This document shows, piece after piece, positions 3,621 through 63,976 of a stretch of DNA of 64,000 nucleotides. How positions within the stretch are numbered: position 1 is the first letter of the stretch; every line of letters begins with the position of its first letter. The notes under the pieces are model-generated. The model saw only the letters and a list, made by a program, of their open reading frames with translations, was not told the DNA's origin and did no database searches. The stretch spans positions 54,747,265-54,811,264 of the forward strand of contig CM026426.1 in the NCBI GenBank assembly GCA_014871385.1, given 5' to 3'. The position numbers were made by a program, and so were the translations under genes. The DNA is from Ceratodon purpureus (taxonomy: Eukaryota > Streptophyta > Bryopsida > Pseudoditrichales > Ditrichaceae).

Positions 3621-3811
3621 TCCGAGGGGAGCATAAAAGGCTCTTCTTAACCCTTATTTTCTACTTTTTAAAGTCTCCTCTTCTAGGTGGCTCCTTGTCC
3701 TAGCTCGTGACTCCACGTGCTCTGCTTGGAACTGCGGGAAGTGGGAGCAATCAGGTTGGGTGGGGGGGAATTTTTGTTTTTTTTTTCGGTGTCCAATTCA
3801 TTGTTCCAACT

Positions 3812-18891: not shown

Positions 18892-18892
18892 G

Positions 18893-18955
18893 GGGAAAGT
18901 TACCATGCGAGCGGCGAGCGGAGAGCAAAGATTTGAGAGCAGAGATTTGACATTT
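18893..18955. repeat. GCGAGCGGCGAGC repeat end, left copy
   Basis: ATGCGAGCGGCGAGCGGAGA and the following GAGCAGAGATTTGA match, in inverted orientation and with a small insertion, the sequence at 40979-41022. It starts right where the TNP2 reading breaks off, so it is probably the end of an inserted element. Confidence 0.5.
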
Positions 18956-21311: not shown

Positions 21312-21966
21312 TCGCATATTGGACAGTCGTCTACTGAGTATCCTGCCAACTTGTTTTGCTTGCATTGCACTCAAGGATTCTCATAAACGCTCAGCGGTTC
21401 AACAATAAAAGATTCCACGCAAGTCCAACTCCGAGTGTTCTACAAAAATTCACAAAATAGATTGTTTTTAATCATTTCCAAATTCATACTTTGTCGAAGC
21501 GGAGAACCAATTAAGGCTCCTGTATTGGGACTAAGTGTATTCCAATCTTAACACTCCATACATGTATTTCTTTTCACCGCATTTAACTCAAATTGGATAG
21601 GTAGAGGCATTGAAAATCTCAAGGGTACTATGTCGAATTGATCTAGAAGCATATACGCAATAAAAAATTTAAAAAAAGTAACAACATCATGGAAGTAAAA
21701 TGAATCTCAAACACCTAATTCTGCATATTTCCGAAGGTGGCGTCCAATAAAAATATGTGCAACACAATGAGTAATTGGATATTATGATTGATGAATTACA
21801 AGCTATCAAATGATAAGCTCAACAATGAAGGAAATTTGATAATATAAATTTGGCTCTTTTGCAATGTAAATTACTCAGGAATTTATAGTGAGTGATTCAT
21901 AGATTTAGGATAAGACTTTCAATCGGTGAGACATGGTAAGAGGTAGTGTTGAAACAAAATACTTAG
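21312..21966. repeat. 655-bp direct repeat, copy 1
   Basis: From TCGCATATTGGACAGTCG to CAAAATACTTAG the sequence is repeated at 23420-24074 with no difference that I could find by eye. AT-rich, no protein. The two copies bracket a retroelement fragment. Confidence 0.9.
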
Positions 21967-23419
21967 CTCACGGCAGGAGTATTTAGCACGATGCAAGACC
22001 CTCACAGCGCATAACGAGACCTTGAGGCTGGGGCAGAAACCAGAGGAGACCACAGACCTTCAAGACCTGAGGACCACGGCCGAACAAGCTCTCCAGGAGT
22101 TCGAGGCTAACAAGCTGGGATGGATCCACACGGCTGCCAAGTTGATCGCCAACAACGCCTACACATGGCTTTGCGATCACCCTGCTACGACAGCCGAACC
22201 TCCCCAAGAACTCCTCGACCATTGCATTGACACTACACTGGCTACTTTAGAGATGGAACAGTCAGAAAATGACTGGGAGAACATGGAGCTGGATCCCATG
22301 GATCTCAAGTCTTTCGACATGGAAGCCTTGTCATTACCTTCCTCGGCGGCCATGGGGACAGTACCAACCAGCCCCCTACAAACACCACAGGAGGAAGCGC
22401 GGCCTTCAAACCTCATCATCCCTGATGTCCATGACCGAGCAGAACGTGTAGACATCCCCGACCAATTCACCGACCCCGAGGACACCCCCCAGCCGTCACC
22501 GAACCTGCAACCACAGCTGCAACCTCCACAACCACAGGTGAATCCCACGGTACCCATGCGTTCCAAGTCTATTAAACATCATAAGGATGCCTTGAGAAAA
22601 ATAGAGGAAGAGTATGATCTCGAGGAAGAGAACAGCGATGAAGAAGAAGCCAAGGAAGAGTTAGCGACTGCAATTACAAAGCTCAAGCGTTATTTTGAAG
22701 CTAACCCTGACCTCGTTGCTTTGTACAGCGACACCGAGGCTAATCATGTGCAATGCCCCGCCTGCAATAAAATACTAGGAAAAACAGTGTACGACATTTA
22801 TCAGCATGCCATGACTTCTAGGACCAGACACAACCTAATCCATCGGGGTGTTGGTGCAGCCATAGCCGCAATACATGGCGATGAAGCTCCACCCCGCGGT
22901 CTCGCACAGCTGCCCAGAGAAGAAACTCGGCCTGATCGACGACCCGCCCACCGACGCACGCGTGGCTGAACCTCTAATCCGGGACGGATTGTGCTCTCGG
23001 AGGGAGGGCTAAATGTTACCTACAACAGCCACGGCAATCAAGGTAACCAGGGGCGGTGAAGACTAGCAGTTAAAAGAAGGAGCAGGCAAAGCAGAGAAGT
23101 CGTAGTTGTAGCAGACAGATAGGACAGAACTTAGTATAAACAGAGTAGCTAGTGGAAAGCTTACACTCTTCAGTTTTGTGACAATGTTGAGTCAGGACTC
23201 TTAGTACGCTTGTTTTTCCTTGTAAGCTGGGGCTCCGTTGCTCCACGATGCCCATGGGTGTCTCGGATAATAGACCCTCTCTCGCTTTGCTTGCACTTGC
23301 TCTGTTCTGTCTCTTGCTCTCTGTGCTGCTTGCTTAACCCTAGTCTGACCTTGTTTGGGCAAGTTATCTCTCTCTACCTTTTGCCTCGTCCTACCACCCA
23401 GTCGAGGCATATTGGACAG
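21967..23419 (+). mobile_element. Retroelement 3' fragment (fossil)
   Basis: This 1,453-bp block sits between the two 655-bp repeats. It holds an open frame at 22022-22969 whose C-terminal part has a CPAC zinc-knuckle-like pair followed by YDIYQHAMTSRTRHN. After it comes a purine-rich tract (GGAGGGAGGGC, about 22999-23010) and then TGTTACCTACAACAGCC at 23014. That order is what one expects before the 3' long terminal repeat of a retrotransposon. A candidate repeat runs from 23014 to about 23409 (TG...CA). No reverse transcriptase, integrase or 5' repeat is present, so it is an incomplete copy. Family is uncertain. The near-identity of the flanking repeats suggests the arrangement is recent. 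Confidence 0.4.
22022..22969 (+). CDS. Frame of the retroelement fragment, zinc-binding C-terminus
   Basis: An open frame of 315 residues (start codon uncertain). It has a helical N-terminus (TTAEQALQEFEANKLGW), a Pro/Gln-rich linker, a Glu-rich coiled stretch (DALRKIEEEYDLEEENSDEEE), and a C-terminal VQCPACNKILGKTVYDI with following His residues that could bind zinc. I do not recognise the family. It lies just before the purine tract and candidate terminal repeat, so it is most likely the last coding part of the element. Confidence 0.45.
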   Translation: MRLGQKPEETTDLQDLRTTAEQALQEFEANKLGWIHTAAKLIANNAYTWLCDHPATTAEPPQELLDHCIDTTLATLEMEQSENDWENMELDPMDLKSFDMEALSLPSSAAMGTVPTSPLQTPQEEARPSNLIIPDVHDRAERVDIPDQFTDPEDTPQPSPNLQPQLQPPQPQVNPTVPMRSKSIKHHKDALRKIEEEYDLEEENSDEEEAKEELATAITKLKRYFEANPDLVALYSDTEANHVQCPACNKILGKTVYDIYQHAMTSRTRHNLIHRGVGAAIAAIHGDEAPPRGLAQLPREETRPDRRPAHRRTRG

Positions 23420-24074
23420 TCGCATATTGGACAGTCGTCTACTGAGTATCCTGCCAACTTGTTTTGCTTGCATTGCACTCAAGGATTCTCATAAACGCTC
23501 AGCGGTTCAACAATAAAAGATTCCACGCAAGTCCAACTCCGAGTGTTCTACAAAAATTCACAAAATAGATTGTTTTTAATCATTTCCAAATTCATACTTT
23601 GTCGAAGCGGAGAACCAATTAAGGCTCCTGTATTGGGACTAAGTGTATTCCAATCTTAACACTCCATACATGTATTTCTTTTCACCGCATTTAACTCAAA
23701 TTGGATAGGTAGAGGCATTGAAAATCTCAAGGGTACTATGTCGAATTGATCTAGAAGCATATACGCAATAAAAAATTTAAAAAAAGTAACAACATCATGG
23801 AAGTAAAATGAATCTCAAACACCTAATTCTGCATATTTCCGAAGGTGGCGTCCAATAAAAATATGTGCAACACAATGAGTAATTGGATATTATGATTGAT
23901 GAATTACAAGCTATCAAATGATAAGCTCAACAATGAAGGAAATTTGATAATATAAATTTGGCTCTTTTGCAATGTAAATTACTCAGGAATTTATAGTGAG
24001 TGATTCATAGATTTAGGATAAGACTTTCAATCGGTGAGACATGGTAAGAGGTAGTGTTGAAACAAAATACTTAG
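23420..24074. repeat. 655-bp direct repeat, copy 2
   Basis: Second copy of 21312-21966. Just before it the 16 bases GCATATTGGACAGTCG occur twice in tandem (23407-23436), marking the junction with the retroelement fragment. Confidence 0.9.
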
Positions 24075-24382: not shown

Positions 24383-25862
24383 ATGACGGGCAAGAGAAGG
24401 AGAGGAGGTAGGTCGCATAGAGCTAGAATGCTGGTCCTTCTACAGGTGGTTTGGATGCTCCCGATAGTGGTACTGGTGAAGACAATGTAATGAACTAGGG
24501 TGATGTGGGGCAAAGTGAAACATTATACTCTGCGGAAGAGTTCAATCAGCCATTTATCTTGGACAGTATAGAGGATTCTTTGCGTCAGAGGATGGTGGTG
24601 GCCGCCCCCATGCTAATGGGTCGCTTTGCTGTATATGGTCGCGAGTACTTTACAGTTTTTGTGGGGTTGTGTGAGGGTCCTCTGATACGAGACGTCTCCA
24701 AAGTCTACGGCTTCATCAAAGACGAAGAAGTAACTGCGGTTTGGAAAGAAGGAGCCTTGAAAGGACGATACAAATTGGAGAGATGTAGAAATTTGGAGCA
24801 ACTGAAGCTGTTTTGTCATCACTTTTTCAAGGTGTATGGTAAGAAGCTTGATAACAACAAATTTCCTTTGCGATTCTTGTAGGCCTATTTTGTCAGGTTT
24901 GTTTATATTAAGCTAGTGAATTGGTGTGAGGAAGCACTTGACCGACACAAGGCTCAGCTGAAGAATGCGAAGCCCAATCCAGCGAAGTTGAAACCCATCG
25001 CAACCCGTTTCCAAATGGAGGGCCTATGCAAGATAATTGATGACCAGTCATTGCGGAAGGTAGGTGCAAGCAGAGGAAGTTATGGTCTAGACTGTCTATT
25101 ACCGTAGCAGCGCAAGAAGAAGAGTAGGCCCGCTGTGAGGATGTCAGACGAGCTACTCTGACATTAATCGTTTCTTGCGAGAAACACGCTACAGCAGTCA
25201 AGAAGATGGAAGATATGGATGCGGATGCAACACAAGATGCACTGAATGCCAAATTCAGTGCATTACAGAAAGGAAAACGCCGGGCCCTCTTACAGGGATC
25301 TGCAGCGCAAGGGTACAAGGACTTGTCAAAAGAGATGGAGGCTATATCTTCTCAGCTGGGAAGCATAAGGGAGGCTGACGCCGAGATACAAATTGAAATT
25401 GTCAAACTTAATGTTGAGGTACAATTGAACTCCGCAGCTCACGATGCAGCGATGGCAGCATTAAAGATGGCCGAGGAATCTGTTGAGAAGGCGAGGGGGA
25501 GCATGCTTGCGTTAAAGACAACATGGGTTTTCTCATGCCCAGAGGCTTCTTCAATTCCCCCTTTGGGCTTCACAAGTAAGGATACTTGTGCTTACTGTGG
25601 ATTTGGATTTGTATGGAAAGCCGTAGTACTCTCCTCTTGCGGTTGTTTTTTGCATCCTCCTTGTGCAGCTGAGTTAATTGCACGAGGGAATTATAGATGT
25701 AGGTTGGGTAAGGATGAGCTTCTAGCCTCATCTCCCATACATCTTACTGGTGAATGGGTTGCTCAATTCGGAGGAGAGCTAGATAGGCAGCAATTAAACA
25801 AGTGCAATGGTTTTTTAGATGTTCTTAAGGTAGTTCGTGGGAAAGAGAAAGAGTTGGGATAG
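24383..25862 (+). pseudogene. Coiled-coil / RING-like zinc-finger protein gene
   Basis: Pieces on the plus strand: a basic start at 24383 (MTGKRRRGGRSHRARM); 24505-24882 (MGQSETLYSAEEFNQPF ... FFKVYGKKLDNNKFPLRFL); the continuation VKLVNWCEEALDRHKAQLK after a stop (to about 25105); and 25206-25862. The last has a coiled coil over about residues 40-105 (DLSKEMEAISSQLGSIREAD) and then CAYCGFGF with SSCGCFLHPPCAAEL, a Cys/His spacing like a RING or PHD finger. One or two stops separate the parts, some of which may be introns. It is convergent with the large gene at 26278-32832. A RING-like finger would suggest ubiquitin ligase activity, but this is inference from spacing only. Confidence 0.45.
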
Positions 25863-27214
25863 ATGGACAAGTTGAGCAATTTCAATTAGCACTTTTGACT
25901 AGAAAACGGACCGCAAATGGATGACATATACCCTCATTTTGATGATATTCAATTACTGGATCTGCTTATATTCAGACCAAGGTGATGTTTAGGTAAAAAA
26001 GAGTAAATATAGCTGCTGTTTCTATAATGATATGTTTGTGAGTCAATCAATATCTTGTTGTATACATGGGCCGCGGCTTTTTGTTCAGTAATACAATTGA
26101 ATTAATTATTACAAGGCAGAAGTAAAAAGAGAATGCTTGTAAGTCAATGAAATTGAGAATAACAATAAGCATAAGACATTTGTTCGGAAATTTACGGAAG
26201 CAAAATACTTCAACATAAGGAAAACAACGAGAGGTAATAAGTTGTTATCAGAATTACGATTCTCATGTCAAAATAGTTCAAGGGATAAACTCATCCTCAC
26301 TTTCAACCGCACAATGATCAATGAAACAACAATGTGTATAATCGTATTTCAAACATGGACTAGAAGAGGCACTAGAACTATGAGAAGAGTATTCCTCTAA
26401 GGCTGGAGCTTGGTCCTCGATGTAGCATGGAAGTTGCATGTCAGATAAGCTAGGGGATCGGTAGTGCCTCCAACTTTGTGCATTAGTCAGTCGTAGAGGT
26501 CGGCTGCAGTGAAAAAAAAAACGATCAACTTGTCAGAGATTGTAAGACCAGCGTAAGCATAAACTAGAAATACAGACAAAGAAATAAAACTTATTCACAT
26601 AGACTAACGGTTCCGTGATCAGGTGGGATGTCTTTGTTGTCGTTCGAGAGGTCCCGTGTCTGGGTCACTACACATCCTACTGCTTTCGATGATGAGGCCT
26701 GAAGCGGTTGCAGCACCTGTTTGAAGATCTTTTGGTAACTTTCCAAGGCCATAATTGCTCAGTTGTATGCCTGAGCAGCCACAATAGAAGCTCCTGGATT
26801 CAAATATATTAGCATGTTACTTAAGATGATGAAAGTGAAGATACAATAAGAAATGAAACGAGAATAGGAAAACTACAAACATGTTCCAACTGTAAGATCA
26901 CATACGATACCATCTTAAGGGCATAGGCCCTTTATGAAAAGCTTCATAAGCGACATAGCTTTTTCCTTTGGGCCCCTCCAATAAATGTTACCATGTCGCT
27001 TAAGTGCTGTGTCTTCCGTGAGAATGTTAGGAATGACATCGTCTTTCGCAAGGTTTATTTTCTTAAACACTAGCGGAGTAGTAATAACGAAGTTCTTTGG
27101 CTTCCGGTCCACTGCTGTAGCAAAGGATTGCACAAATAGAACAGCCTTGGATTTGAGAGTCTGCACAAGGAAGAGTATATAAAATGATTAGTAATACATA
27201 AAGGTAATAGGCGC

Positions 27215-27360
27215 CTCATAGGTACCGCCAGTATCGGCGATGCCTTTGCGGCACCACACTGCTCATGACGGTGGTTGACTGGGGCTATCCCGACAACCAC
27301 CGCCATGAGCAGTGTGGTGCCGCAAAGGCATTGCCGGTACCGGCTGTGCCTTCAAAGCAC
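27215..27360. repeat. Intronic palindrome with 37-bp hairpin arms
   Basis: 27241-27277 and 27294-27330 are inverted copies matching at 36 of 37 bases, with a 16-base loop. Weaker pairing continues outward for about 20 bases and includes the CCGGTACCGG-type core seen in the other arrays. It lies in an intron between the two methyltransferase exons. Confidence 0.8.
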
Positions 27361-28855
27361 ATTCTGCCTCAAGTGAAACAAGAGCAATCAAAGGAAGAAC
27401 ATTAAGAAAATTACCATTCTGGAGGCATCTGTGGGATGAGTTATATGAAGCAAATTGTGGATGAGCCACTCGTTCTTCACTTGAAGAACGTTGTTATTCA
27501 AGAAAGCGCCAACTTCCTTTTTGATCTTGTTGCAGTCAGGGTAGAACAGCAGAAAAGCACCATCATCGTGGAGGTATTGCCGGCAGAATTTTATTGCATA
27601 CTTTATGAAGTCTTCAACCTTACTGTTCCAAGTTGGGACTTCTCTAAGGCGGGATGACACACCCGGAACAATTAAACCGTCGGGGTAGTCCGCAATAACG
27701 AGGTCCACCGCCAATCTCTTATTTAACTTCCCATCGAAGTAGAATTCTCTACTGGAGCCAACCTAAAAGAGAATAAGATTATTGCTTAGTAAGAAACAAG
27801 TAGGAATCATAATATTATATATAAAAATAATATTCGAAAAGAAACTCACCTTCTTGAGGAATGATACCATGAACTCGAAAGAGGAAGGAAATCGCCCGGT
27901 CGTGTCTCTAAACTGAACCATGGAATGAAACGACTCATCAAGGATGAGAACATGAGATGTTGGCACTGAAGTGGTGACCGCCTGGCTCACGGACATTGTC
28001 TTCACAGGTGGAGGTGCCAACTCTTCAGAGCCATCCTTTGAAGATGCTCCAAGCAGCAGACGCTTCCTTGATCTATTCGCAGTGCCGACACTAGGATGTG
28101 ACTCTTCCTGACCGATTTCAACAACCTTGTCAGCTGCAGCTTTAGTTGCTGCTATATCCTCCTCCTCCTCCTCCTCCTCGGCTTGATCCTTTACCTCATC
28201 ATCAGCTTTCCTCTTCCGATTCCTTCTTGCTCTCGCTCCGCCTTTTCCCCTGGAAGAGCCAACGGCGGGAGCAGTAGCAGAGGCCTATGAAGCAGCAATT
28301 GGAAGCACCTTTGGTATCTTGGCAAGTTCAGGCTAAATAGAGTCCCTCAATGCAACATTTAAAGTCGGGCATTTCTTTGGAGGGCAATCCATGTACCACC
28401 ACATCTCTCATAGTGCTAGGGTTCCCATGCCTTCAGTATCGCAGCTATATACATGCATTCCGCACTGTCTGTATCTAAGGAATTCAGGGAAAAAGGTGGA
28501 ACCTTCGAAATCAATTTTCAGGGCAGAAGAATGTACTTAAAGTACCGGTACAAGATTCTCCAGACAGCAGGTTGAAAATTTGGCTGCTCCTTGGACTTCT
28601 TGTTCTTATGAACCAGCTCTCCATTCAACTCTCTTAAAAATGCGGTATCCCAGAGCAAACATCGCATTGCTTCATTATAACTGAAGATGCCTTCAATCAC
28701 GTCTCCAATATCCAGTCCGTAGTCCAGCTTCACCCCGAGATCTCTAACAACTCCCTTGAAAAGCTCCTCGGCCTCAATAGCTAACTCCAAAACACAGAAT
28801 GTGAATAAGAATCTCTGGTTGACTATCAAAATGGATGAGATCAAGATAAAGCACA

Positions 28856-29600
28856 AAGGCCTTCAAAAGCAACGCCGGTATTGGCGATGCTTTGAGAGGC
28901 CCTTTGCTATGACCGTAAAGGCTGCAAAAGTAGCCTTCACGAATACAGTGAAGGCCCTATCAAAGCACCGCCGATACCGGCGTTGCTTTTGGCTCAACAT
29001 TACAAGTTTCGTGAAGGCTGTTTAACAGCCTTCTCGGAGACTGTAAAGGTGCTCCAAAAGCATCGCCGATACCGGCAATGCTTGGCGAGCACTCTAACAG
29101 GCTCTGAGAAGGTTTCTTAAGCAACCTCCTTGTTGATAGCGAGGTTGCTCTATAAAGCTCGCTGGTACCGGCGGTGCCTTTGGAGCACCCTCAAGTTACC
29201 AAGAAGACTCTTAATACAGCCTTCTCGGTAACTATAAGGGTGCTCCAAAGGCATCGCTGGTACCGGCAAGCCTTATAGAGCACCCTTGCGGACTCCAAGA
29301 AGGTTGCTTAGACAATCTCTTTATTGACAGCGAGGGGCTCCAAAAGGATTGCCGGTATTGGCGGTGCCTTTGGAGCACCCTTATAGTTACCAAGAAGACT
29401 GATGTTACAGTTTTCTCTGTGACCGCCGTGGTGCTACAAGGGCACCTTCGGTCTTGGCAAGCCTTTTAGAGCACCTTTGCGGTCTCTGTGAAGGTTGCTT
29501 GGACAACCTCCTCGTTGACAGCGAGGGAGCTCTGAAAGGATCGCCGGTAACAGCAATGCCTTTGGAGCACCCTACCAGTTACCGAGAAGGCAATCAAAGT
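28856..29600. repeat. Palindrome array, unit about 95 bp (190-bp higher-order unit)
   Basis: Eight copies of an imperfect palindrome of the form AAAGCATCGCCGGTACCGGC plus its mirror GATGCTTT, centred near 28875, 28973, 29065, 29165, 29258, 29352, 29449 and 29547, so spacing is about 91-100 bases. The spacers alternate between two types (one with AAGGTTGCTTAGACAA..., one with AGTTACCAAGAAG...), giving a 190-base unit. It falls inside an intron of the ParB/methyltransferase gene. Confidence 0.8.
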
Positions 29601-31099
29601 CTATCTGGTCAGTGTTCTTACTTGTGCTCATCAAGTCGCTTTGTGTAGCCATGGCAGAAACACCGCGTCTGAGAATGCACCTTTCGGAAACTTGTGGGCA
29701 ACTCTGATTGCATCCAAAGAATTCCACCCCTAGAGCCACTTTACCATCATCGTTGTTGGCATGGCAAAAGTCGCTAGCATCAAGAGCTTCTTCTGCTGCA
29801 TCTCTTGCTTATCATCCGCCTTCTTGTAATGCACCTAAATTTCTTCCAGAAACGCGGGTGAGTGTTTCGGATCTACGATAGGTAAACACTTCCTCAATTT
29901 CCTTGCTAATTTGTCCTCTACCCTCTGGACCGCCTTCTGAACCATTGATCTACTGAGCGCTCACTCCACTGGCTCGGGTTGGGGTTGGCCAACTGATAAC
30001 GTTGTTAGGCGGCGTGAGCAGCCTCTCCGATCTCTTGCTCCATAGTTGGTTTGAATATAAAAAATAAATATCAATCCTGTATAGAAAATTTAAGCCAATG
30101 AACTTTGGTGCTCAATATATTCGTACCTGATGCAAGATCGAGTTCAAGGCTTCCAGTGACAGTGTATACCAGGTCCTATTCTTTCTAGGTTGCTTCTTCT
30201 TTGCAGCATGAAGGAACGGCCGCAAAACAAGGCCTTTGAAATACTCCACTGGTTGAGGAGCAAAATTCTGTATCCAATAAAGCCTATGCACAAGGTTTGT
30301 CGAGACATGGGATTTCTAGTTCCTCCTGGATATTCACAACAAATGGCGCTTAAATATCATTGAAAACATATTTGCTAGAATCCAACACAAATAAAACACA
30401 TTTCAAATCACTTACCAGTACACTTTGTGGAGGGCTGTCAACACCAATGGAATTTCTCCCTTCGGATCAAGGACCACGCTTTCAACTCGGTAATGCCAAC
30501 TGATGTCACTAGCATGAAAGTGCTCAATGATCGGCAACCAAGCCTGCAACATGTGGTTTCCGTCCCAAACCATGAACATCTTCCTTGAAAAAACCTTCGA
30601 TTCATCATCAGCAAGCAGGGTTTCTTCAAAATCTTCATTCACCTCCTTCCATTCTTTTGACCAAGAAGCTTTGATAGCGGGTGTGACCTGTGATGTATGA
30701 TCGTGGTTCTCCTCCAGAGCCACGTAAAAATAGCCGTTGCCCTCCATATAATCGTCTCTCACAAAGTGTACCTGCAGAGTTGATACATCATTCTTAAGGT
30801 ATGATCTCACCACAGGCAACGAGATCATACGGCAAAGGGGAATGAAGAGCTGGCCTCTGTTCTTTGGTTGCCATCTCAGTTTCTCCAGCCTCTAAGCGGT
30901 GTTGATCGTCTCCTTTGCAATTAGATCATACAGCATTTGATTGACTTCACGCTCTGTCAAAGTAACTGCATGGTAGGGACCACAATTAGTCCATAGCCGA
31001 ACATGAACCGGTACTCTATAAGCAAGATGCAGTACCAGCCTTACTTGTGACAACCCCTACCAAACCTACTTATACAAAACAACACTTTCTTAAACATAT

Positions 31100-31690
31100 T
31101 CTTAAAGGTACCGCATTAAATTGCCAAAAAAAGGAAGCCGGTACCGGCATCGCTTCTGGGTGCCACCTTCAAGCCTCTGGCTAAAGCAATGGAGTCTGAA
31201 TTGAGAACGAGAGTGCCCAGAAAGCGATGCCGATACCGGCGACGCATTCCTGGGCCTCTTTGTGATTTGCAGAAGGCAACATACCGCACAGCTCGGCCGA
31301 GCATCAACATCTGTTCACGAGCTCAATTCTACCCTGAAAGTCGTCGCTGGTACCGGCGTTGCATTTCCAATCGGTGACCAGGAAGTGCAAAGGAACTGGT
31401 CACTGCCCGAAAATGCGACGTTGATACCGTCAACGACTTTCAGGGCACAATTGTGCTCGTGCACAAAAGCTCATGTGCGTCCGGGCAATGGAAGAGGATT
31501 CCTAGAAATCGACGCGGCTACCGGCATTGCCTTTGAGGGCAGGTCAATCGGTGCTCGAAATCCGATGCCAGTACCGGCGTCGCTTTCTACGGCACCTCTG
31601 TGCTCTGCACAAGTGCACTGTTGCACATGTGCATTGCGCGAGGTTTGCCCAAAAGGCGACGTAGGTACCGGCATAGCTTCTTGGGCACAA
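31100..31690. repeat. Second palindrome array in another intron
   Basis: Seven copies of the same palindrome family (GCCGGTACCGGC, GCCGATACCGGC, GCTGGTACCGGC and variants) at about 31130, 31222, 31344, 31415, 31512, 31566 and 31653. Spacing is less even than at 28.9-29.6 kb, and spacers differ from that array. It lies in the intron between the acidic exon (31751) and the ParB-like exon (30966). Confidence 0.75.
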
Positions 31691-32839
31691 GTCGACACAG
31701 CCATCAAAGGTAACGGTTATAAAATTGTAGACAAAAAAACCAAAACATACCTTCGGGTCGTGCATCTTCTTGCTCGCCCTCCGCTGCTTCCTTGTCGTCG
31801 CCCTCTCCTCGCTCTCTGATATCTTCCATCTCAACCTCGTCATCGTCTTGAGGCTCGCGGTAGATATGCCCACTCCCAGATTGTGGCCCCTTGGAGCCAC
31901 GGCTGGTTTCAGGCTTGTCTTCCCCCTCCTCCCTACCTTGCGATGTTGGTGTCTTCTCTTCAGACTGGGACTCCATTTCCTGAATTGACCAAATAATATT
32001 ATTGGATATAAGTCTGATAATCCAATTAAACCGCAAAAACAAAACCCTAAACAAGACAACTACTTATTATGCTTAGTGAAGGCAAACGGGGAGAGAGTCC
32101 ACGGGCGACAACGATATACAACAGCAAACGATGGGAAACAAGCGGGACCACCGACTATATAGGAAAAGGAGGACCGCAAGGGGCGAAAGACGAAGAGAAG
32201 TAGTTTGGGCGGGAGGATTAGAGCAGAGAATAGGTAAGATAGGAAGACGAGGGCTCGGGTGAGGCTTAGGACAGGTGCTCGTAGAGTAGCCTAGTCGTAG
32301 CAAACTCTGGTACTGAAAGTAATTACAACAGAATGCAACAAAGACAATCATAAATATGTAAGACGTCTAATCAGCTCGAAGGACATGAGTGTCAAGAACT
32401 TTGTGATTAACAATTATAGACTTGGCAAGGATCAAGAACTTCTAGAGTTGATGGGCCATCGCTTGAGCTGCTCTAAAATACTGCAAAACAAATTCTTAAA
32501 TGACAAAAGGACTCCCACACAAATTCGCATACAATCTAATGAAAATTTGCTCAACATACCTCTTGACGGTCACTCTGGGTTTCTTGAGCTTCACTTGTTT
32601 TCTCCACGTGTTTTCTTGCCCCCCTCATGTATTGCTTGGTATTTTCTTCATGTACAGCAAGTAGGGGTGTCTCCGCTCCAGACGAGTAGTCTAAAACCTT
32701 TCCCAATCCTGCAATTTCTAAAGTCTCGGTTCTCTTCTTCTTATCCTTCGCCATCCGACTCGCCATCAACGCCCTTTTAGTACTAAAATGACTTGTTCTT
32801 CTTCGTTTCTTAGCCTTCACTGGGGCCTGCATATCAAGA

Positions 32840-33660
32840 ACCTTTATACAAATGCATCCTACTCACCTAACAAAATGAGAGCTCACCTGTCTTGTTAGAA
32901 TCACTTACTCGTTCTTGAGACGACGAAGTTATCTTTGCCTCTGCACTGACGATGTTGTAGGGCCCATGCCATAATCAATACAAAATTGATTGTGTAGATC
33001 GTGGGCAAAGGTAGCATAAAACTCATTCTATTTGTAACACAAAAAAACAAAAGCCTGTACCAAAACTAGATTTTAGTTATTCCCATGACGACTCAATCTT
33101 AAATTAAACCACTCTTTATTAAATAGGATGTCCACCGTGAATTACAACGAGTCATACGAGATTGGTTTGCATCTGGCGGCTTCATATCTGTTTACGACTA
33201 TAATTGATAGTGCTTAACATCCATGAATAAGTAAGTTATCGTTGTTTAGAATGAACAAATGGATCCAGGATCCTGGATAAACAGAGCTAGGACAATGGAC
33301 TAATCCTCACAAGTTATACTCTCTAGTTCTAGTAGCATCATTGTAAGCTCAACTCCCACAGCATAGAATGTCTCATTTCCATTCAGACACAGTGTTAGGC
33401 ATGGCCGTGCTCAGAGCTCATGGTGTTGGTATTCCACTTACAATATGTATAGATGAGGATGGGTTGGCAAATCTGTGACGGCGCAACGCCTTAGCCTCAG
33501 ATTTCACTTCAGAGAGGAAACTATTAGTATAGAAGAAGAGATTTATGATGAGGGGACATATGAGATTACACATACGCTGGATCAGGTTTCTGAGAATGAT
33601 GATTATGATAACAGGTTCTAGAACCTTTATCTTGGTAGATACAGAGTTTATTGTCTCACA
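32840..33660. other. Intergenic, no recognised gene
   Basis: AT-rich DNA between the methyltransferase-type gene (minus) and the decayed MULE transposase (plus). It may contain promoters of both or an upstream exon of the latter (readings at 33360-33600). No repeat or RNA gene recognised. Confidence 0.3.
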
Positions 33661-34922
33661 GAGTCCCAGATGCAGGCGTCCACTGAGATTATAACTCCTC
33701 GTCGTTCATCTACTTGTACTATTCACACTCCCATGCCTCGTCATGTAAAGATTAAGGTAGAGCCTAGCTTGGGCAGTCCTGATGTAACGCCAGTCATCTC
33801 CCTATCCTCAGACGAGGAGACTAGTCCTCTGAAAGCATCACCTGATGTTCACAAACAGTCTGTAGAATCTAGCATGCCAACTACACTTCCAGTCAAAAGT
33901 GCCAGTAACTCCCAGACTTCAAAGAATGAGACTGTTAGTGTAGTCCGGTTGATTAGGAAACTTGGGGAGAGACCATGGACGAAAAACAATCTTAAAAGAA
34001 TAGATTACTCCTTTGTGAGACACAAGAAGGTAGAGTACTTGCCTGCAGTGTTCAATGGTGCTTTGATTTTTGAGCTTCCTCCAGTTGATGAAGGCGCGGC
34101 GAGGTCGCAAGCGAAGGCAATGCAAGGAATGGACAAGCGTTATGATGGCCATCTGTGGACCAAGACAATCACTATTAACATCACCAACAACTTCGGCCTC
34201 TCTTTCCACTACTCCAGCTGCGTTGGATGGCTGCGCTGCAACAACAAGGACTGTGATTTTCTGAATTGTCGAAGTAAATGAGACAGAGTTTGAACGATGT
34301 ACCTTACAAGCGTTTCTGGAGGATAAGCCACCCCCAGCTGCTTCAACACTTGTCTGCAAGGTATGTAAAGAACCTCTAGCATGTATTGCTACATGTGGAG
34401 CTATGATTTATTACGTTGTTGGGAAACTCAACCAGACCAGCCCATGTATCCACCTCGGTACTCATGATCACCCAGTCAAGGTTGTGGAGTGAAGGGACAG
34501 TAAGATGGAGATTAGTAGCCTAATTGAAGACTAGGTTGAGAAGACTCCTCAAGCTACGAAGAGTGCAGTTGTGTTGGAGGCGAGCAAAGTCCTGATCAAC
34601 ACCTATTTCCATCAACCTGAGAACGCACACCCGAAGAAGCTGAGCATGGAGGAGCTCGTTCCTGTACTTGACGGGTGCAAGGACATGGCTTCTCCAAGTA
34701 TCCACAACAAGGTTATGACCTTCAGGCTGCTGAGAAGGTAAGGTTTCACAGACGCCATCACCAAGCTCCGTGGTATCAGCCTATGGGCCTATGTTCAGGA
34801 GAACAAGTTTCTTGGTCAGGGCGCTGATCTTGACAAAGTGTTTCTCTTCAAGATGTCTGAAGTTGGGCCATGCAGTGGCGTCCACTTGGTGAGAAGAATG
34901 CAGCCCGGCGGAGATCTCCTGA

Positions 34923-37333
34923 CACTAGAGCAGAACAGCATTCTGTCCTGCATTAAACTGCGTCATCAGAAACGTAAACCTGGATTTATGGAAATTAGTG
35001 TGGAAATGTGATCCAAATAAACATACTGCACGTTAAAGGTTTTAACGTGCACGCGTCACTTTTGACGTTGCTTTAACGGCTCCTGTCAAAAAGTGTCAAC
35101 TTGAATTTTGAAGTGACGGTTCAGTGTTAAAAATAACAACATGAGTGACATCGCGTCAACTTAAACATAAATCTGCATTGTGGAAAGTAACTTTTTTGGA
35201 GAGTTTTTTACCTCACAATAGTTTTTTAATGGTTAAATTTAGTCACATCCCACGTCAGCACGTTTCTTTTAACATAGAGGGCGTTTAAGGTGACATCGGA
35301 AACGTTCAACTATGTTACTAAAAACATATTAACAGATCCTACGTGGAATGCCCTGCTGACTTGGAACAAAGGCGTGGAGGATACGGCTGACCTGGAACGT
35401 AGGTTTTGGATCCTAGAGGGTGTCAATAGTGACGCCTGCGTTTTGGGTGACATAAAAATGCGTAACACTGTGTTTCAAGAAACATATTGATATAGCTTAC
35501 GTGTCCCCTATGCGTGTAAGTTAGAGCTGACGTGACGGCTAGGTTATGACCTGGTCTACATCCTAGGGGGTGTCAGTAGTGACGCGCGCGTTTTGGGTGA
35601 CATAAAAATGCGTCACACTGCGTTTCAAGAAACATATTGACATAGTTGACGTGTCACATGTGCATGGAGGCCGTGATTGACGTGGCGGCTATGGTTTGAC
35701 TTGATCAACATCCTAGAGGGTGTCAATAGTGACACACGCGTTTGAAGTGACATAAGTTGCGTGAAATTGTGTTTCAAGAAACATAATCACATAGCTGACG
35801 TGTCAGATGTGCGTAGAGGCTATGGCTGACGTGGCGGCTAGGATTTTGGTGATGTACACGTTAACTCATGTTTCCATTGTTCATTCTTTGGTGGAAACAT
35901 TCATCTATGAAGGTCTTAGATTAGGGCTTTAAGCCTTGGTTTAGGGTTAGGGTGAGCCGCCACTTCGGCGGCTTCTTATCTTGTATTTGAAAGCTTGTTT
36001 TCAAGCTTTTTGTGTTTTCTTCTTACTCCATAGAGTGTCTCCCATTGTTTTCCCTATCAGTCCCTCGTTTCTTGTTCAAGTAGATTGAGATTTGAAAGAG
36101 TTGTAGATCTCTTGTAGGGCTTTCCAATGGTAGTAAGCACGTCCAATTCTAAGTTATAGGGAGTGAGATATCGCCTACCGAAGTTGGGGTTGTCAAAGGA
36201 GTGCGGCTGGAGGAAGGGTCTCGGATTTTTAGCAATCAGTCTTTGAATTTTGATCTTATGATCTTGAGATTTTGAGGGTAGATGCACAATCAACTTTGCT
36301 TTCCAAAAAGCTAAGGCAGGCCTTAATCCAATCAAGGATGGAGTAATGGCGACCTATAAACTGAAAGGTACTTCAATAAAATCCGGGGGGGGGGGGGAGG
36401 GGGGTTGGGGTTTCTCCTAACTTTATTTTTGTTCTCCATCTTCTTCTTGTCTCCATTCTTCCCTTGTTCCTTGAATGATGTGTTGCTATGAACTCACCGT
36501 GAGCACAGTGATGTGGGGTGTGTAGATTAAGGAGGATCCAGCATGAGCAACCCCTTACATTACGTCATCCTACGTCTAAAAACGTTTTCCGAAACGCGTT
36601 AAAATATGTGACATATGTGTTTATCAGCGTCAAGTTGAACACTACATTGTGTTTCTTTTGACAAAAAATTCAAATTGAATGCGTCACTATTGACATGGCA
36701 AACATCATCCTTCGTCTAAAGACGTTTCCGTAAACGCGTTAAAATAAGTGGTACATGTGTTTATCAGCATCAAACAGTGTCAAAGTTAACGTCCAAGACG
36801 CACTTCCAAAACACGTCACACTGCGTTTACATAAACACAAAATAATACAAATCCCAAATTTGATGCGAAAATATATCTTCAATCCACGATCACTCCACTT
36901 GTCACAATCTAGGCCATTGAAAACCTAAATGATACGTCAGATTTCCATGCCACATCAGAATTTTTTTCATCCATCAGGACGACGGAGCCTTGCCCACGTC
37001 ATATCTAACCTGGAATTAATTAACATTGGGAAATGTCCATGTCACATGCAACGTGGAATGCAAAAAGGAAGGAAGTGCTCACGTGGCAAAAAACTTACTC
37101 TCAAAGTTACTTACCCTGGGTAACTTCCATAACCTGTGTTTGCGTCACTTTTAACATAACGTCAACTCCTGTTAAACGGTTTAACATAAGGTTGACGCAG
37201 CACGTCAAACGAATGCGACGTCCATGACCTTTTTGCCATTTTTGCGTCAAAAAAACTGTCCACGTTAAACTGCGTTAAACCGCGTTAAAACCGCGTTAAA
37301 CAACGTCACTTTGGACACTGTTCTGCTCTAGTG
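34923..37333. mobile_element. Complete non-autonomous CACTA element
   Basis: The left end CACTAGAGCAGAACAG and the right end, its exact complement CTGTTCTGCTCTAGTG, form 16-base terminal inverted repeats. A 3-base target duplication TGA flanks both sides, as expected for the superfamily. Inside are subterminal TGACG, GCGTCA and GTTAAAC motifs near both ends, a 150-bp tandem repeat, and a poly-G run (about 36386-36404). It encodes no transposase and sits inside the decayed MULE transposase gene in a position that interrupts its reading. It must have been mobilised by a transposase acting on these ends. Confidence 0.9.
35385..35850. repeat. 150-bp tandem repeat within the CACTA element
   Basis: Three units marked by CCTAGAGGGTGTCAATAGTG at 35412, 35562 and 35712, exactly 150 bases apart. 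Each also holds AAGTGACATAA-like, GTTTCAAGAAACATA and GACGTGGCGGCTA blocks. They are probably expanded binding sites of the element. Confidence 0.8.
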
Positions 37334-39499
37334 TGAACAACTGGGTCATGTTTGACCATGTCAAACGGGTAAAATACAGGACTACTATGGCTTGCCATGT
37401 GTACGACTCAACCTACTCTCGTGTCATGACAATTGCGACCTGTGACATGTAGTCTGAGGACTATCAGGCTCAAATTCTTTTATGGCAAAATCTCAACTTT
37501 GTCATGGAGAGTAATGGCGTGAAAGAGGTAAACTTCAAAGGCTTCATGGCGGACAACGCCCAAGCAAGCTGGAATGCAGTTCGGATAGTCTATGGAAATG
37601 GGAAGAAGGAGGACCGCATGGAAGACACAAAGAGGACCTCTCTATTTCACTGGACTCGGTCCATGGTCGCCAATACAGAGAAGCATATTCCCGAAGAGCT
37701 ATAGGAACAGCATAAGAAGATGTGTCACCAGTACAAGAAAGCAAGGACTATAGAAGAAGTGGATACCATGTATAACAGCTTCTAAGCTTGGTGGGTATCC
37801 ACCGGAGTTGTGTCGGAGAAATCTCTGGGCAACCTAAAGCTCTGGCTTGCATTCTAGCATTTCCGTTATCGATAGTGGGGAGCATTCATGACTAAGGTAC
37901 ATTAATTCCACTCTAATCTGTTCTTCTACTTTTCTACATAATGCCCTCTTTTCTGAATTTTTTCATCATATCTAAATACTTTGCGTGTATCCCTTGTAGA
38001 AATTTATAGGAGAAGAATTTGCAGAAATGCATTCATACAACCTATCCAAAACAGTCCACAACAAATGGCTCCAAGCTTCAGGAAACAACAGCCAGGATCT
38101 ATATGTTGCTACTGTGGACGACTTTGTCCGTGCATTTCTACAGGTCGTCAACTTTTGCTAGTTCCTGAAAGGTGACGTGGGCGGCACAGGACCATCCAAG
38201 AAGGAACTCAAGCTAAGGAATGCTGAACGTCAAGCGAAGCAAACAGTGAATCCCATACTCCTAGAAGACGCGATGTTGGAGATGCCCGGTGCACAAGAGT
38301 TTTGCACACCTCTGCCTCGCATGGCAAGAGAAGAAGTGTTTGGATCAGTCAAGCAAAAGGCAGACCTTCCCGTCGGAGCTGAACAAGAATCACATCGTCC
38401 GGTCAAGGTAAACTACTCTAGTCCTAAAGGTTTAGGACGTGCTGTCGGGACTAGTACCATGTCAATGCCAGTCATTGTGGAAGATGACATTGAAGATGAG
38501 ACCGAGGTAGTTGAAATTGAACCCACGACAGCAATATCTCAAGATACCTCATCATCACTAGTGGACGAGGCGGTAATTCGGCATGTCAATGCAGTTGAAC
38601 AAACCAAGGTCAATGTCAAGGAGTGGCACATTTCAAGACTGTCCAAGAGTTCTGCCAAGTGCTGCTGGGCATAGAGAGCTGTTACGAAAAAGAAGTATAC
38701 CGAGAGGATTGTAAGGGGTACTAATTTGACTGCAGGACCTACATACACCGGAGCTTGGACTAACATACGCAGGAACACATCTGAGGGAACGAAGTTCTTC
38801 TTCTGCTTCGACAACATTGAGAGGTGTGTGAAGGGTATGAAGCGCAAGTGGATTGCCACATACTCTATGGACCAAGAAATGCCTCCGATTCCAAAGGTTT
38901 GGCCGGTGAAGCTAGGTACAAACCTGAATCTGACAGAATTCGTGCACTTGAAGGGGCAGGGTTCCAACTCCCGCAGAAGATGCCCGTCTCTCCAAGACGC
39001 CTCTTCTCAACTGCAACCCCCCCCCTGCAAATCTGAGTTCACTACCCATCCCTGCAGAAGCTGACTACTACCCTGGTAAGAGAGACGGCAAGATGGTGAA
39101 ATGCACAGCCACTCGCACAAATCGATCACAGCATCTGTCGATGAGCTCCTCGTACTCCCTCAAAGCTCGACTTTGCTCCGACACTATGATTCCTAAACCG
39201 GGCGATAGCTGCATCATTGGGCTGGATTCCGGCGTTGTGCCAGCCACCACGCAGTACCAGATCACCATTAGCTTCTATCCGGGATGCACTTGCCTTGCAT
39301 TCAGAAAGACGATGACTAAGTTCCGAGGCAGGGTTCAGTTCTCTTATTGCAAGCACCTCTACTATATTCTTTTGAAGGTCTGCAGCCGAGATCCAGACAC
39401 CGACCTTTTCATCCATGCACCTACTTTTAGTTTCAACGAAGTCAAGCTCGTCCTAGAGAGTGGAACCTTGACTCACCCCTTGGCCAAGAAATAGGAGCC

Positions 39500-40970: not shown

Positions 40971-41030
40971 CTCACTGCCCTTCAAATCTCTGCTCCCCGC
41001 TCTTTGCTCGCCGCACGCATATAAGTCTCG
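40971..41030. repeat. GCGAGC repeat end, right copy
   Basis: TTCAAATCTCTGCTC, CCGCTCTTTGCTCGCCGC and ACGCAT are the inverted match of 18893-18955 (GAGCAGAGATTTGA and GCGGCGAGC), with a small length difference between. Confidence 0.5.
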
Positions 41031-41160
41031 TCCTCTCTAATATTGTTCATTTTTTCCTTGTCCTATAGCTAGCATGTTTTTTTAAAATTGAGATGTCAAG
41101 GAAAAGAATATTGCCAAGAGACGGTGGTGGACCTTTTCAAGATCAATCCATCAATGGGAC

Positions 41161-42954
41161 GTCATGTATTAACAAGTTTATCTTTTGGATAGTGAAATGC
41201 GAGATGAAGTATGGTTTAGGGATTTTTGTATGAATTACAGTTCTTTAGTTAAGCTTTGTGACCTTTTCAAACCTTACATTAAACATCAAGACACAATAGT
41301 AGAAACCACACACAACTACACCAAAGTTTACACCAAAAAGGATTTAAATCGGGCTTTTAAAAATGGTGTATTCAAAATTCTGTTTGGTGTAATTCGGCAC
41401 CTAACATTGCTATTTCTGTGCAAGGATGTGGAATCAAACTCAGGTGGCCCACGCTGCTTTAACCGAACAATAAATCTTTAACCCAGCAGTTTATCTGGCA
41501 ATTCAATAATTTATTTGTTCTGGTAAATTTTTGCATGTTGAATGGATGAATTGCATCCGTTGGAAGGGAAAATATGGGAGGGTGGAATTTGGGGCACATT
41601 TATTTTGGTCCATCACATTACCTAGATCACTCACTGTTAAGCATCTATACCTGCGTGTGTATGGGAATGATTGGGCGCCTATATACTCAAGGACTGAGGT
41701 TTGGAATGCAATGCTTATGGGACTTGGGGACTGTAAGACAAGTTTTAACCTTTCCACATTTTCGTTGAAACACGGGTCCTTTGACATGCCCAGAGAATAC
41801 CCAAAAATACCCTGCATCATGATTGGTTGACCCGTCCTCTGCGAACAACAGTGATCTATTCTGAGAGACCAATTTCAAGGGGGCTTGTTTTTACACCAAA
41901 AAGGATATTAGACCAATCAATGACCGTTTCATTCTAGGATGAACACCAAAGCATATTTTTGGTGTAATGCTTCGGTGCAGTTAGCACATGTTTGCACTAG
42001 TGACACCAAGTACAGAAATGTTGTCCCTGTTTAGAAAGCAGTTGCAATGGTTCTTCACAAACTAGCTCATGCGAGAACAAACCGGAATGTTGGAGATAAG
42101 TTTGGCGTCGGAAAAACAACAGCTCTGAAGTATTTGATGCTTATATGAAATGCATTGGCTGACAAAGATAAATCATATCACCAATTTATTGCTATTCCAA
42201 GTGGCAGGAGATTGAAAGATATTATACGTGGATTTCATCGTATAACCAAATTGCTTCAAATTTGTGATGCTATAGATGGATCACATGTTAAATTATACAG
42301 GAAACCCCACAAAATTCACCCTGGCAGATTATTGGTGTCGACACGATGTACATACAATATTGTTACAAGGAATATGTGATAGTTATCAAAAAAGTTTGGA
42401 TGTCTGTGTTTTAGCGCCAGGGGGCACTCATGATGCTACGCACATGCAATCTTTAGAGTTCTTCAAAAAACTAATGAGAAGACGAATTTTACAAGAACAT
42501 AGCATCAATATTGAAGGTGAAGCTATAAAACCCTTTATTATTGGAGATTCAACTTATTCTTTACTGAAACAAATTCAGAAGCCTTTCAAACCAAAGTTGT
42601 CTGGAAATGATGATCAAGATGCCTTTGACAAGTGTATAAGACAAAGAAGAGTCAAAATTGAAAATACCTTTGGTATCCTTAAAAATAGATGGGGAATTTT
42701 GAAGAACCTGAATGTTGATGTCAAATATGCTGTAACTATAATCACTGCTTGTTGTGTGCTATATAACTTTTGTAGATACAATTGTAATGATAAACAACCA
42801 ACGTCACCACATGATTATATTAATACCATGTCCAATAATAATGATAGGTACCATGAAACAGATGATCGAGAACCATCGACAAGAACATCTGCTCGTGCAG
42901 GAACCAGAATCAAAAAAAACTTTGTTTCAATATTGGTTAGATAATGTGAAGTAA
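41161..42954 (+). pseudogene. PIF/Harbinger-type transposase (DDE_Tnp_4 family), decayed
   Basis: Pieces: 41190-41305 (MNYSSLVKLCDLFKPYIKHQD, the family's N-terminal QDT segment), then an insertion, then from about 42005 NVVPV, KAVAMVLHKLAHARTNRNVG and GVGKTTALKYL. From 42155: ADKDKSYHQFIAIPSGRR, then CDAIDGSHVKLYRKP with the first catalytic Asp. After one frame change near 42.3-42.4 kb: SLDVCVLAPGGTHDATHMQ, IIGDSTYSL (second Asp), and RQRRVKIENTFGILKNRWG with the catalytic Glu, then ACCVLYNFC. Order and motifs fit Harbinger transposases (DAIDGTH, PGSxHD, GDxGY, RxxVExxFGxLKxRW). In-frame stops and the insertion make it inactive. The companion Myb-like gene of autonomous Harbingers is not seen. 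Confidence 0.8.
41306..42000. mobile_element. Short insertion inside the Harbinger transposase
   Basis: The transposase reading stops after HQDT (about 41296) and resumes at DTKYRNVV (about 42011). The intervening 0.7 kb begins with CTACACCAAAGTTTACACC and ends near TTTTTGGTGTAATGC, inverted forms of ACACCAAA, as in small non-autonomous transposons. ACACCAAAAAGGAT also recurs directly at 41332 and 41892. Exact ends are uncertain. Confidence 0.4.
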
Positions 42955-43967: not shown

Positions 43968-44113
43968 GAGCGGTACTTGTAGCGCGAGCTTCATTCAGCA
44001 TGAGATGACGGTTGCTGAGTGAATCACTTCGGATCGGTGTGACTCCATTCTACCCCTGTCATGCATACTCATCGGATCGGGAGCACGATCCGGACCTCGC
44101 AGACACTATACAG

Positions 44114-47100: not shown

Positions 47101-47607
47101 GCTCACTGCAACTGCCCGTTGGGCATGCGAGGTAACATCTGCAAGCATATGGTGAAGGTGTTTAGGATGATAAACACGGAGGTTCACCCTGGAGACATCA
47201 TACGGTATGCTGGGACCTTGAGGGGGACGATTCAGAGTGGCTGCAGTACTGCTGGCCTGGACATGGGAGACGGGACAGGCGAAGCAGCAATCCAGGACAT
47301 CAGAGGGGCTGTCCTAAAGTCAGACGATCCTGAGAAGACGTACATCCAGATGAGGGGGTTCCTGGAGGAAGCGGATACTCTAGCGCTTGAGAATGTGGGT
47401 CTCCGGGAGCATTTCCTGGCTATCCAGGCTGAGGCCACAGGAAAGATGGTTGCACTGAAAGCCAAATCCGAGGCAGGCTTGCTGCACCCTCTCTCACAGC
47501 CGTCCTTCAAAGTGAATGCAGGGCCCAAGAATCTGCGGCGCTTCAAAGCATGCTCCGAGACTGGGACTAAGAAAAGGGCTGCCGGGCGAAGTAGGAAATG
47601 GGAGTAG
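44114..47607 (+). CDS. MURA-like transposase with DDE residues and SWIM finger
   Basis: Four exons with good GT-AG sites: 44114-44838, 44998-45988, 46115-46314 and 46429-47607; about 1,030 residues. I chose the ATG of MHDVQFGADAY because the frame upstream has no ATG; an earlier start is possible. Order: acidic N-terminus; Lys/Ala-rich coiled coil (QKLVEKAAKDAEKAAKDAEK, 45128-45187) with GRPKKKGK; a zinc-binding module (GCQCNF ... FHCMTHTNREGKECHG); RALSMDATFSTN (first Asp); FLVDNDQAELNAI (second Asp); LLCLWHTCKAW (C-x2-H); DTNAAVESYHANLKAIL (Glu); and the SWIM finger CNCPLGMRGNICKH. These are the hallmarks of MULE transposases. One base appears to be missing at about 46630 (between LQGD and QERFNFLK), shifting the frame once; without that the protein would be whole. 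It would cut and join the terminal repeats in the nucleus. Confidence 0.88.
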
Positions 47608-63700: not shown

Positions 63701-63976
63701 GCTCGCACTCCTGCTCGCACTCTCAATCACGCCTCCAAGGCCTCCTCCAACGACTCTCACCACTCGCATCATTCACACCGTTCTCACAACTCCCACCACT
63801 CCCACAACTCTCAAGCTTCGTGCGTGATGGGCGTGACCAGGAGTCCCTCTGTGGCGTCCAAATCTTCCAGTAAGCATCTTGACAGCAACAGCGACTATGG
63901 CGAGGCCAATGCTGAGGGAGTGGACTTCGGATCGCGCCATGCGCATCGGTCCTACTGTGGCTGCACTATTTTGTGA
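57704..63976 (+). CDS. BASIC PROLINE-RICH PROTEIN (BPP)-like microtubule-associated protein
   Basis: Exons fitting in phase: 57704-57836, 58272-58374, 58581-58674, 58850-60196, 60425-63056 and 63435-63976; about 1,610 residues. The start is MTVEAMAKVERRYCRKVGES. Hallmarks of the plant BPP family: an early RRDKEHLALFEELANHDD (compare EELALFLEMRKRE), then KSEDDWLVTVPEVSPSP (compare YDWLLTPPGTPLFPS), then a long Ser/Arg/Pro-rich part with repeated SRGSSPxR and SPRPST (58.9-60.2 kb). BPPs decorate cortical microtubules. This protein is far longer than Arabidopsis BPP1; the 2.6-kb exon is Ser/Glu-rich and disordered, with DSLRK-like and SSFDYFVDFLDSQPDVDLDG segments. The last exon has TPARTPARTPART and a His/Ser repeat and ends SYCGCTIL, a CaaX-like tail with Leu (geranylgeranyl-type). 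If the donor at 63057 is not used, translation stops at 63145 and the last exon would be another gene with ATG at 63497. Confidence 0.75.

Follow-up and report, generated by a model that had tools for sequence, protein, structure and literature searches.

A decayed giant transposon copy in the moss Ceratodon purpureus carries an accessory gene with a permuted methyltransferase-like domain and candidate iteron binding sites

The stretch analyzed here (the window) comprises 64,000 nucleotides of the moss Ceratodon purpureus (assembly GCA_014871385.1, contig CM026426.1, positions 54,747,265 to 54,811,264; C6:54747265-54811264 in the searched genome of 362.5 Mb and 151 contigs, of which C6 makes up 110.5 Mb, or 30.5%). 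It contains, at 18892-41033, a dead, decayed copy of a giant DNA transposon (~18.6 kb) with inverted ends, a conclusion we regard as firm; copies in better condition exist elsewhere in the genome. On the minus strand of this copy lies a gene that is almost certainly the transposon's own accessory gene, placed head to head with the transposase and encoding a permuted methyltransferase domain. The best overall explanation, to which we give a probability of about 70%, sees here the dead remains of a giant transposon together with its own accessory gene, whose protein may bind inverted-repeat iterons for self-recognition.

The limits of the element and the two parts of its transposase gene are as follows, the extended copy used for comparison being that formed by loci L029, L009 and L030:

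18892-41033, no strand assigned (accessory gene on minus): decayed transposon copy, end to end, 22.1 kb including nested inserts, placed by homology to the extended copy and by its end sequences
18892-18950, plus strand: inverted end, low side (GGGGAAAGTTACCATGCGAGCGGCGAGC...), with 40 strong places elsewhere for the right-end query
40975-41033, minus strand: inverted end, high side, degenerate, with 40 strong places elsewhere for the left-end query
33622-34924, plus strand: broken transposase gene, part one, by homology to a 608-aa frame of the extended copy
37342-39491, plus strand: broken transposase gene, part two, separated from part one by an insert at 34925-37341

In the extended copy, inverted ends of 43 bp at 91% identity lie ~18.2 kb apart, and a 13-base word, CCCTCTGTTCCAC, is common to both flanks, so that this copy too has a target-site duplication; the chance of a common word of at least 10 bases in two random flanks is 0.7%. 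Genome searches with each end sequence returned, besides the 40 strong places apiece, 8 and 2 short extra matches. We chose seven copies for which both ends were among the matches and enclosed hits to the transposase and to the methyltransferase gene, and 46 bp were read per end. They measure 16.6, 18.6, 18.9, 18.8, 18.8, 18.6 and 18.6 kb, and a target-site duplication stands directly outside the ends in 7/7, with common words of 10-13 bp; because the element ends are G/C runs, the true duplication is shorter, ~9-11 bp. The window copy shows no clear target-site duplication at its ends.

The pairing of transposase and accessory gene recurs throughout the genome. Out of 1712 candidates, 150 places, including the window, were scored for the accessory-gene exon that carries methyltransferase motif IV, and all match it with E 7.5e-34 or better; 72 of them are on C6, which holds 30% of the genome sequence, an excess that is biased because the query came from C6. 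A transposase search gave 126 scored matches among 2234 candidates, and a scored transposase lies within 25 kb of at least 81 of the 150 motif IV places. For 76 of these 81 paired places the transposase is upstream and on the opposite strand, the median distance being 8.9 kb, compared with a mean of 4.1 and a maximum of 10 such pairs in 200 trials with shuffled positions. The 608-aa transposase frame of the extended copy likewise runs on the strand opposite to the methyltransferase-like accessory gene, whose exons in the window are, in reading order:

32560-32832, minus strand: N-terminal exon, basic (AKKRRR), from an open reading frame with a counterpart in the extended copy
31751-31979, minus strand: second exon, acidic, from an open reading frame with splice sites placed by eye
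30416-30965, minus strand: ParB-like exon (VWDGNHMLQAW) with one stop, 83% identical to L009, the ParB name given by motif only
29622-29993, minus strand: middle exon, conserved, with five stops and no known domain, from block comparison and the ratio of nonsynonymous to synonymous substitution rates (dN/dS)
27850-28350, minus strand: lysine-rich exon ahead of the methyltransferase part, from block comparison
27415-27762, minus strand: motif IV exon (VDLVIADYPDG, DGAFLLFYP), open, from genome matches and block comparison
26882-27160, minus strand: exon carrying RGPKEK and, at its end, motif I (DGIVCDLTVGT), one stop
26594-26791, minus strand: exon finishing motif I (ASIVAAQAYN), one stop
26278-26493, minus strand: last exon, with a serine/acid-rich tail ending ESEDEFIP, from the list of open reading frames

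We fetched 10 kb around 20 of the 150 places, 12 of them close and 8 further removed, which with the window gives 21 sequences. Four blocks (ParB-like, mid, pre and MT_IV) are collinear in 21/21 and the MT_I block is present in 20/21, some blocks being partial or split, and the order is kept in the 20 fetched copies down to ~50-60% identity of the motif IV exon. Since the block order is the same across the 21 sequences, the ParB-like and methyltransferase parts belong to one gene. On these points the first-pass annotation, made from the letters of the window, was right: the strings that it quoted (those given in the list for the ParB-like exon and the three exons with motifs IV and I) all occur on the minus strand and follow one another in order, and the two parts that it had joined do belong together. 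Its description of the gene as decayed and intron-bearing is likewise borne out by the multi-exon structure and by the in-frame stops of the window copy (ParB-like 1, mid 5, MT_I 1, next exon 1), and its suggestion of carriage by a mobile element by the inverted ends, the duplications and the paired transposase.

The accessory gene is under purifying selection. We used the Nei-Gojobori method with Jukes-Cantor correction, dropping gapped copies and skipping stop codons, which retained 21 (ParB-like), 17 (mid), 21 (MT_IV) and 12 (MT_I) of the 21 copies; saturated pairs, numbering 118/208, 56/136, 104/210 and 10/66, respectively, were left out. Median dN/dS at dS 0.3-0.6 and at dS 0.6-1.2 was 0.07 and 0.11 for the ParB-like block, 0.07 and 0.05 for mid, 0.16 and 0.16 for MT_IV, and 0.23 and 0.14 for MT_I. 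Close pairs (dS < 0.1) gave higher medians of 0.21-0.49, as expected if single copies then decay.

Profile comparisons give statistical support to the reading of the C-terminal part as a permuted N6/N4-type methyltransferase domain, as the first-pass annotation had proposed. The PF01555 (N6_N4_Mtase) family is of the beta class, with a usual motif IV of [DNS]PP[YFW] and an S-adenosylmethionine (SAM) motif I with G-x-G. While single exons of the window gave no relevant Pfam match, spliced members of family A, to which the window copy belongs, and of a sister family, B, matched PF01555 in 10/11 cases at E<=1 (best 1.8e-9); the family A member L015, once spliced, scored 21.1 bits (E 3.4e-4), below the curated cut-off of 26.7. 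A profile of 11 members matched PDB entries 5hfj and 5hek (labelled DpnA, an enzyme that we take to be M1.HpyAVI) at 3e-8 and CcrM (6pbd) at 1.7e-4. Comparison by hhalign with three phage ParB-methyltransferases extended over 183 columns with a probability of 95.8 and E 6.5e-9, controls against a wrong profile giving 0.12 and 0.33. Both the reading of the motifs and these 183 columns place motif IV before motif I in the accessory gene, and the RGPKEK block sits where PF01555 enzymes have HPTQK.

In a genome profile search with PF01555, 33 of 150 scored places exceeded the cut-off, and those that were read come from the sister families B and C; the loci of these further families are L031-L040 and L041-L043 (B with motif IV D[QT]P[FY], C with DVPED). 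At eight PF01555 loci of family B that were fetched, MT_I is 33-43% identical to family A in 8/8 and the MT_IV segment 30-42% identical in 7/8, with a motif IV of DQPF, DQPY or DTPF in the 5/5 loci read, which comes close to the [DN]xP[YF] of some known adenine methyltransferases. Family C holds the N-terminal and methyltransferase parts in one 567-aa frame, and the N-terminal part of family B is 42-48% identical to those of families A and C.

Between the coding blocks of the gene, an inverted repeat, TGCCG-N4-CGGCA, occurs in tandem arrays in 21/21 sequences. We tentatively treat these iterons as candidate binding sites for the encoded protein, a proposal that falls a little short of even odds. 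The window has three arrays:

31132-31677, plus strand: iteron array 1, 6 sites, in the stretch separating the second exon from the ParB-like exon
28869-29559, plus strand: iteron array 2, 7 sites with a ~95-bp period, after the middle exon
27222-27349, plus strand: iteron array 3, 2 sites, in the stretch separating the motif IV exon from the motif I exon

With a 22-bp pattern and at most 3 mismatches, 15 sites were found in the window against 0.01 expected, all within 27222-31677, and the 12-bp core with at most 2 mismatches occurs 10-28 times in each of 20 loci against 0-0.6 expected. Outside the element, the window has one core match, at 54297, with 1.3 expected. The search was seeded with the main-family core (for L027 also with its own core) and would miss other repeat kinds. 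Of 367 sites in the 21 sequences, 204 lie between coding blocks and 157 in the 2 kb preceding the ParB-like exon, a stretch whose status as an intron comes from the gene models of just the window and the extended copy; 1 is in a coding block (L024) and 5 are elsewhere, and at least two sites stand between blocks in 21/21 sequences. A strict dyad test on the same sequences returned 119 dyads against 4 expected, 113 of them with an iteron-type core and 0 in coding blocks. No dyad came up in the window, L021, L024 or L025, and those of L022 and L023 all had other sequences, since the centre in these six is not palindromic. Perfect 14-mers number 269 genome-wide against 23 for the reversed control, and among 50 distinct 14-mer places listed, 38 are within 8 kb of a scored motif IV place. 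The arms read TGCCG/CGGCA, with CGCCG/CGGCG in their place in much of the main subfamily, and the most frequent centre varies between subfamilies (GTAC, GTGC, GCAA, or TTAA in L027); in L027 and L022/L023 the symmetry extends well past the seed.

If the iterons are indeed its sites, the encoded protein would bind them as a dimer via its N-terminal ParB-like part and could in this way recognise its own element, while the methyltransferase-like part would bind SAM or flipped-out DNA bases and either mark the DNA of the element or act as a non-catalytic clamp. The likely gain for the element would be to stay expressed or to steer its transposase, and other transposon proteins are known for anti-silencing or self-marking. 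A more particular form, in which an altered methyltransferase fused to a ParB-like part would serve partition- or iteron-like self-recognition through intronic arrays, with specificity and repeat changing together between subfamilies (GTAC to TTAA in L027), seems to us rather doubtful.

Several results weigh against the best overall explanation, and they concern the iterons themselves, the methyltransferase motifs, the N-terminal part and the transposase. The iterons could be plain intronic minisatellites or RNA hairpins unrelated to the protein, which we judge to have close to an even chance of being correct: they stand in tandem arrays with a near-fixed period, hairpin-based correction is able to hold the arms symmetric, and arm mismatches show a slight overall excess of G-T over A-C (263 vs 218, p 0.045). 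That excess comes mainly from L026/L028 (49 vs 10), where mismatch types do not favour a DNA-level site over an RNA hairpin. In the main subfamily, however, the two types are equal (176 G-T, 177 A-C), sites of L022/L023 are found in both orientations (GCAA 14, TTGC 10), and the arms stay near TGCCG/CGGCA as the centre shifts by subfamily. For the main subfamily and L022/L023, the mismatch types and the two-way orientation speak for a site at the DNA level rather than for a hairpin in the sense-strand RNA.

The methyltransferase motifs were read in the 19 sequences having all three blocks; the other two of the 21 lacked a block. Motif IV reads [DE][YFI]PDG apart from two variants, PNG and LDG, so that its aromatic residue is missing and its acidic residue varies between D and E; PP[YFW] occurs in 0/19 family A copies. 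Motif I varies as well, being DLT[AV]GTG in many and STG, GTR or GTS in others. The motif IV region is free of stops in 12/19 sequences. Codons for DLVIA[DE]xPDG occur at 117 places genome-wide (reversed control 0), whereas those for DLVIADPP[YF]G occur at 0 places. In known enzymes the aromatic residue of motif IV stacks on the flipped base, and since it is absent in family A, an altered or inactive enzyme is more likely than a canonical one, and catalytic activity of family A appears doubtful. The DPPY or DPPW for which the first-pass annotation had looked in relatives is replaced by [DE]-x-P-D in family A and by D[QT]P[FY] in family B. An active DNA amino-methyltransferase placing N6-methyladenine (6mA) or N4-methylcytosine on its own transposon would agree with the homology to methyltransferases (PF01555, PDB, hhalign), with the D[QT]P[FY] retained in the five family B loci read, and with the self-modification proposed for algal relatives in the accessible text of PMC12477816. 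Against the motif IV of family A and the codon counts of 117 vs 0, we consider it unlikely.

For the N-terminal part, ParB-like is a label at the level of a short motif, without statistical support. The hallmark of ParB_N is G-x-x-R after a strand, with I-P-L and V-R blocks before it; VWDGNHR is found in 9/9 aligned members of families A, B and C, and the R of DGNHR is replaced in the window (M) and in L009 (S). The ParB domain of the first-pass annotation was not recovered: PF02195 has no match genome-wide, profile searches of Pfam, PHROGs and PDB detected no ParB in the N-terminal part, hhalign against eight phage ParB-type proteins aligned only 7-13 residues around G-x-x-R, and 0/70 pattern matches in prokaryotic genomes supported a ParB relationship. 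The ParB-like profile gave one short motif match on viral contigs (1/32): a phage protein (DUF6551, PF20188) has YFYVWDGQHRLVA in common, the search pattern having already contained the motif. Structure models built from single sequences for two window exons reached pLDDT (predicted local distance difference test) values of 37 (ParB-like part) and 44 and are unusable.

Profile searches with the transposase returned no convincing Pfam match and no PDB match. Its motifs DAT, GDN and CLFH are DDE-like by eye, part two (37342-39491) has a Cys/His cluster resembling a SWIM finger, also by eye, and target-site duplications of the Mutator superfamily are 8-11 bp, typically 9 bp. The ~9-11-bp duplications and these motifs point to a Mutator-like transposase. 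The element resembles Mutator-like transposons in duplication length, inverted ends and DDE-like motifs (by eye) but differs from them in lacking a match to PF10551, the Mutator-like element (MULE) transposase profile, and in aligning no better than shuffled sequence to one MULE domain from this genome (916/1000 shuffles reached the alignment score).

Mutator-type elements pick up gene fragments (PMC6431247, accessible text), and the accessory gene could be a passenger without a role, captured Pack-MULE style. The constant block order in 20 copies, the purifying selection and the fact that two more families of the genome have a gene of the same kind make this improbable. An origin from a giant virus, or from some other integrated virus, is more improbable still: phages carry ParB-methyltransferase fusions and mosses are said to carry viral insertions, but the element has clean ends and target-site duplications, 0/54 pattern matches in viral contigs encode a relative of the methyltransferase part, and the ParB-like profile yields the single short match mentioned above.

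The element also holds a second accessory gene and a nested insert:

24499-25862, plus strand: second accessory gene, split over three frames here, from open reading frames with a counterpart in the extended copy
21312-24074, no strand assigned: insert resembling a long terminal repeat (LTR) element, flanked by identical 655-bp direct repeats (21312-21966, 23420-24074)

In the extended copy (L009/L029), the second accessory gene is one open frame of 490 aa from the first M, with a coiled coil, a Cys/His-rich C-terminus (RING-like by eye) and no Pfam match above cut-off. Between its two repeats, the insert has a 338-aa frame without a Pfam match, and it appears to be a young LTR-type insertion inside an old element.

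Elsewhere in the window, 3704-5339 is a protein-kinase-like gene (PF00069 E 8.8e-6, below cut-off); a related frame flanks L029/L009/L030, and that copy seems, by eye, to be inserted into one. A Harbinger-like transposase fragment lies at 42276-42944 (DDE_Tnp_4, E 2.6e-17), and long frames at 44009-47607, with a weakly SWIM-like end at 46588-47607 (PF04434 E 0.0065, below cut-off), are possibly another transposase gene. The long open frames at 58847-63976 (469, 913 and 200 aa) have no Pfam match at 0.01 and possibly belong to an ordinary host gene.

The moss copies combine a methyltransferase part that in some is free of stops with measurable purifying selection and candidate binding sites, and they allow a natural comparison of two families, one whose catalytic motif is near-canonical and one that has lost it. 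The named candidate sites make the idea that the protein binds and marks its own DNA directly testable by binding and base modification. Transposon-borne methyltransferase cargo is already known from algae, and host, motif and duplication here differ or are new, as far as the accessible text of PMC12477816 allows comparison. There, the Ectocarpus Sola1 family (Sola1-1_Ec32, 21.5 kb) is described as encoding a 1104-aa ParB-like and N4/N6 methyltransferase protein opposite the transposase; relatives in transposons of green (Iyer 2011) and of red algae (Petroll 2025) are cited, and self-marking is suggested, with no target sites named in the accessible text. Likewise a giant element with the gene opposite the transposase, the moss transposon (76/81 pairs, 16.6-18.9 kb) differs by description in its host, its ~9-11-bp duplication, its motif IV of [DE]xPD and a ParB assignment by motif only, and in the iteron arrays between coding blocks, of which that text makes no mention. 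Base modification by such an enzyme in a streptophyte would have been new to the first-pass annotation; no report of a moss or other land plant case was found in a literature search that took in few subscription papers, and a word search of the accessible text of a 2025 survey of 6mA in eukaryotes (PMC12695648) found ParB, moss and land plant unmentioned. The PF01555 enzymes (5hfj, CcrM 6pbd) share with the moss protein the order of motif IV before motif I and the RGPKEK/HPTQK position and differ in motif IV. ParB-methyltransferase fusions are reported to be frequent in phages (PMC12704722, accessible text), and those of Terrisporobacter phage TPDSL_ph1 (XAO13880.1) and Streptococcus phage Javan117 (QBX14016.1) have the same layout of N-terminal ParB and C-terminal permuted methyltransferase, the hhalign alignment spanning their methyltransferase part from motif IV to motif I. 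They differ from the moss gene in having DPPYG and DPPYN as motif IV, in being single uninterrupted genes and, in the one scanned, in a true PF02195 match.

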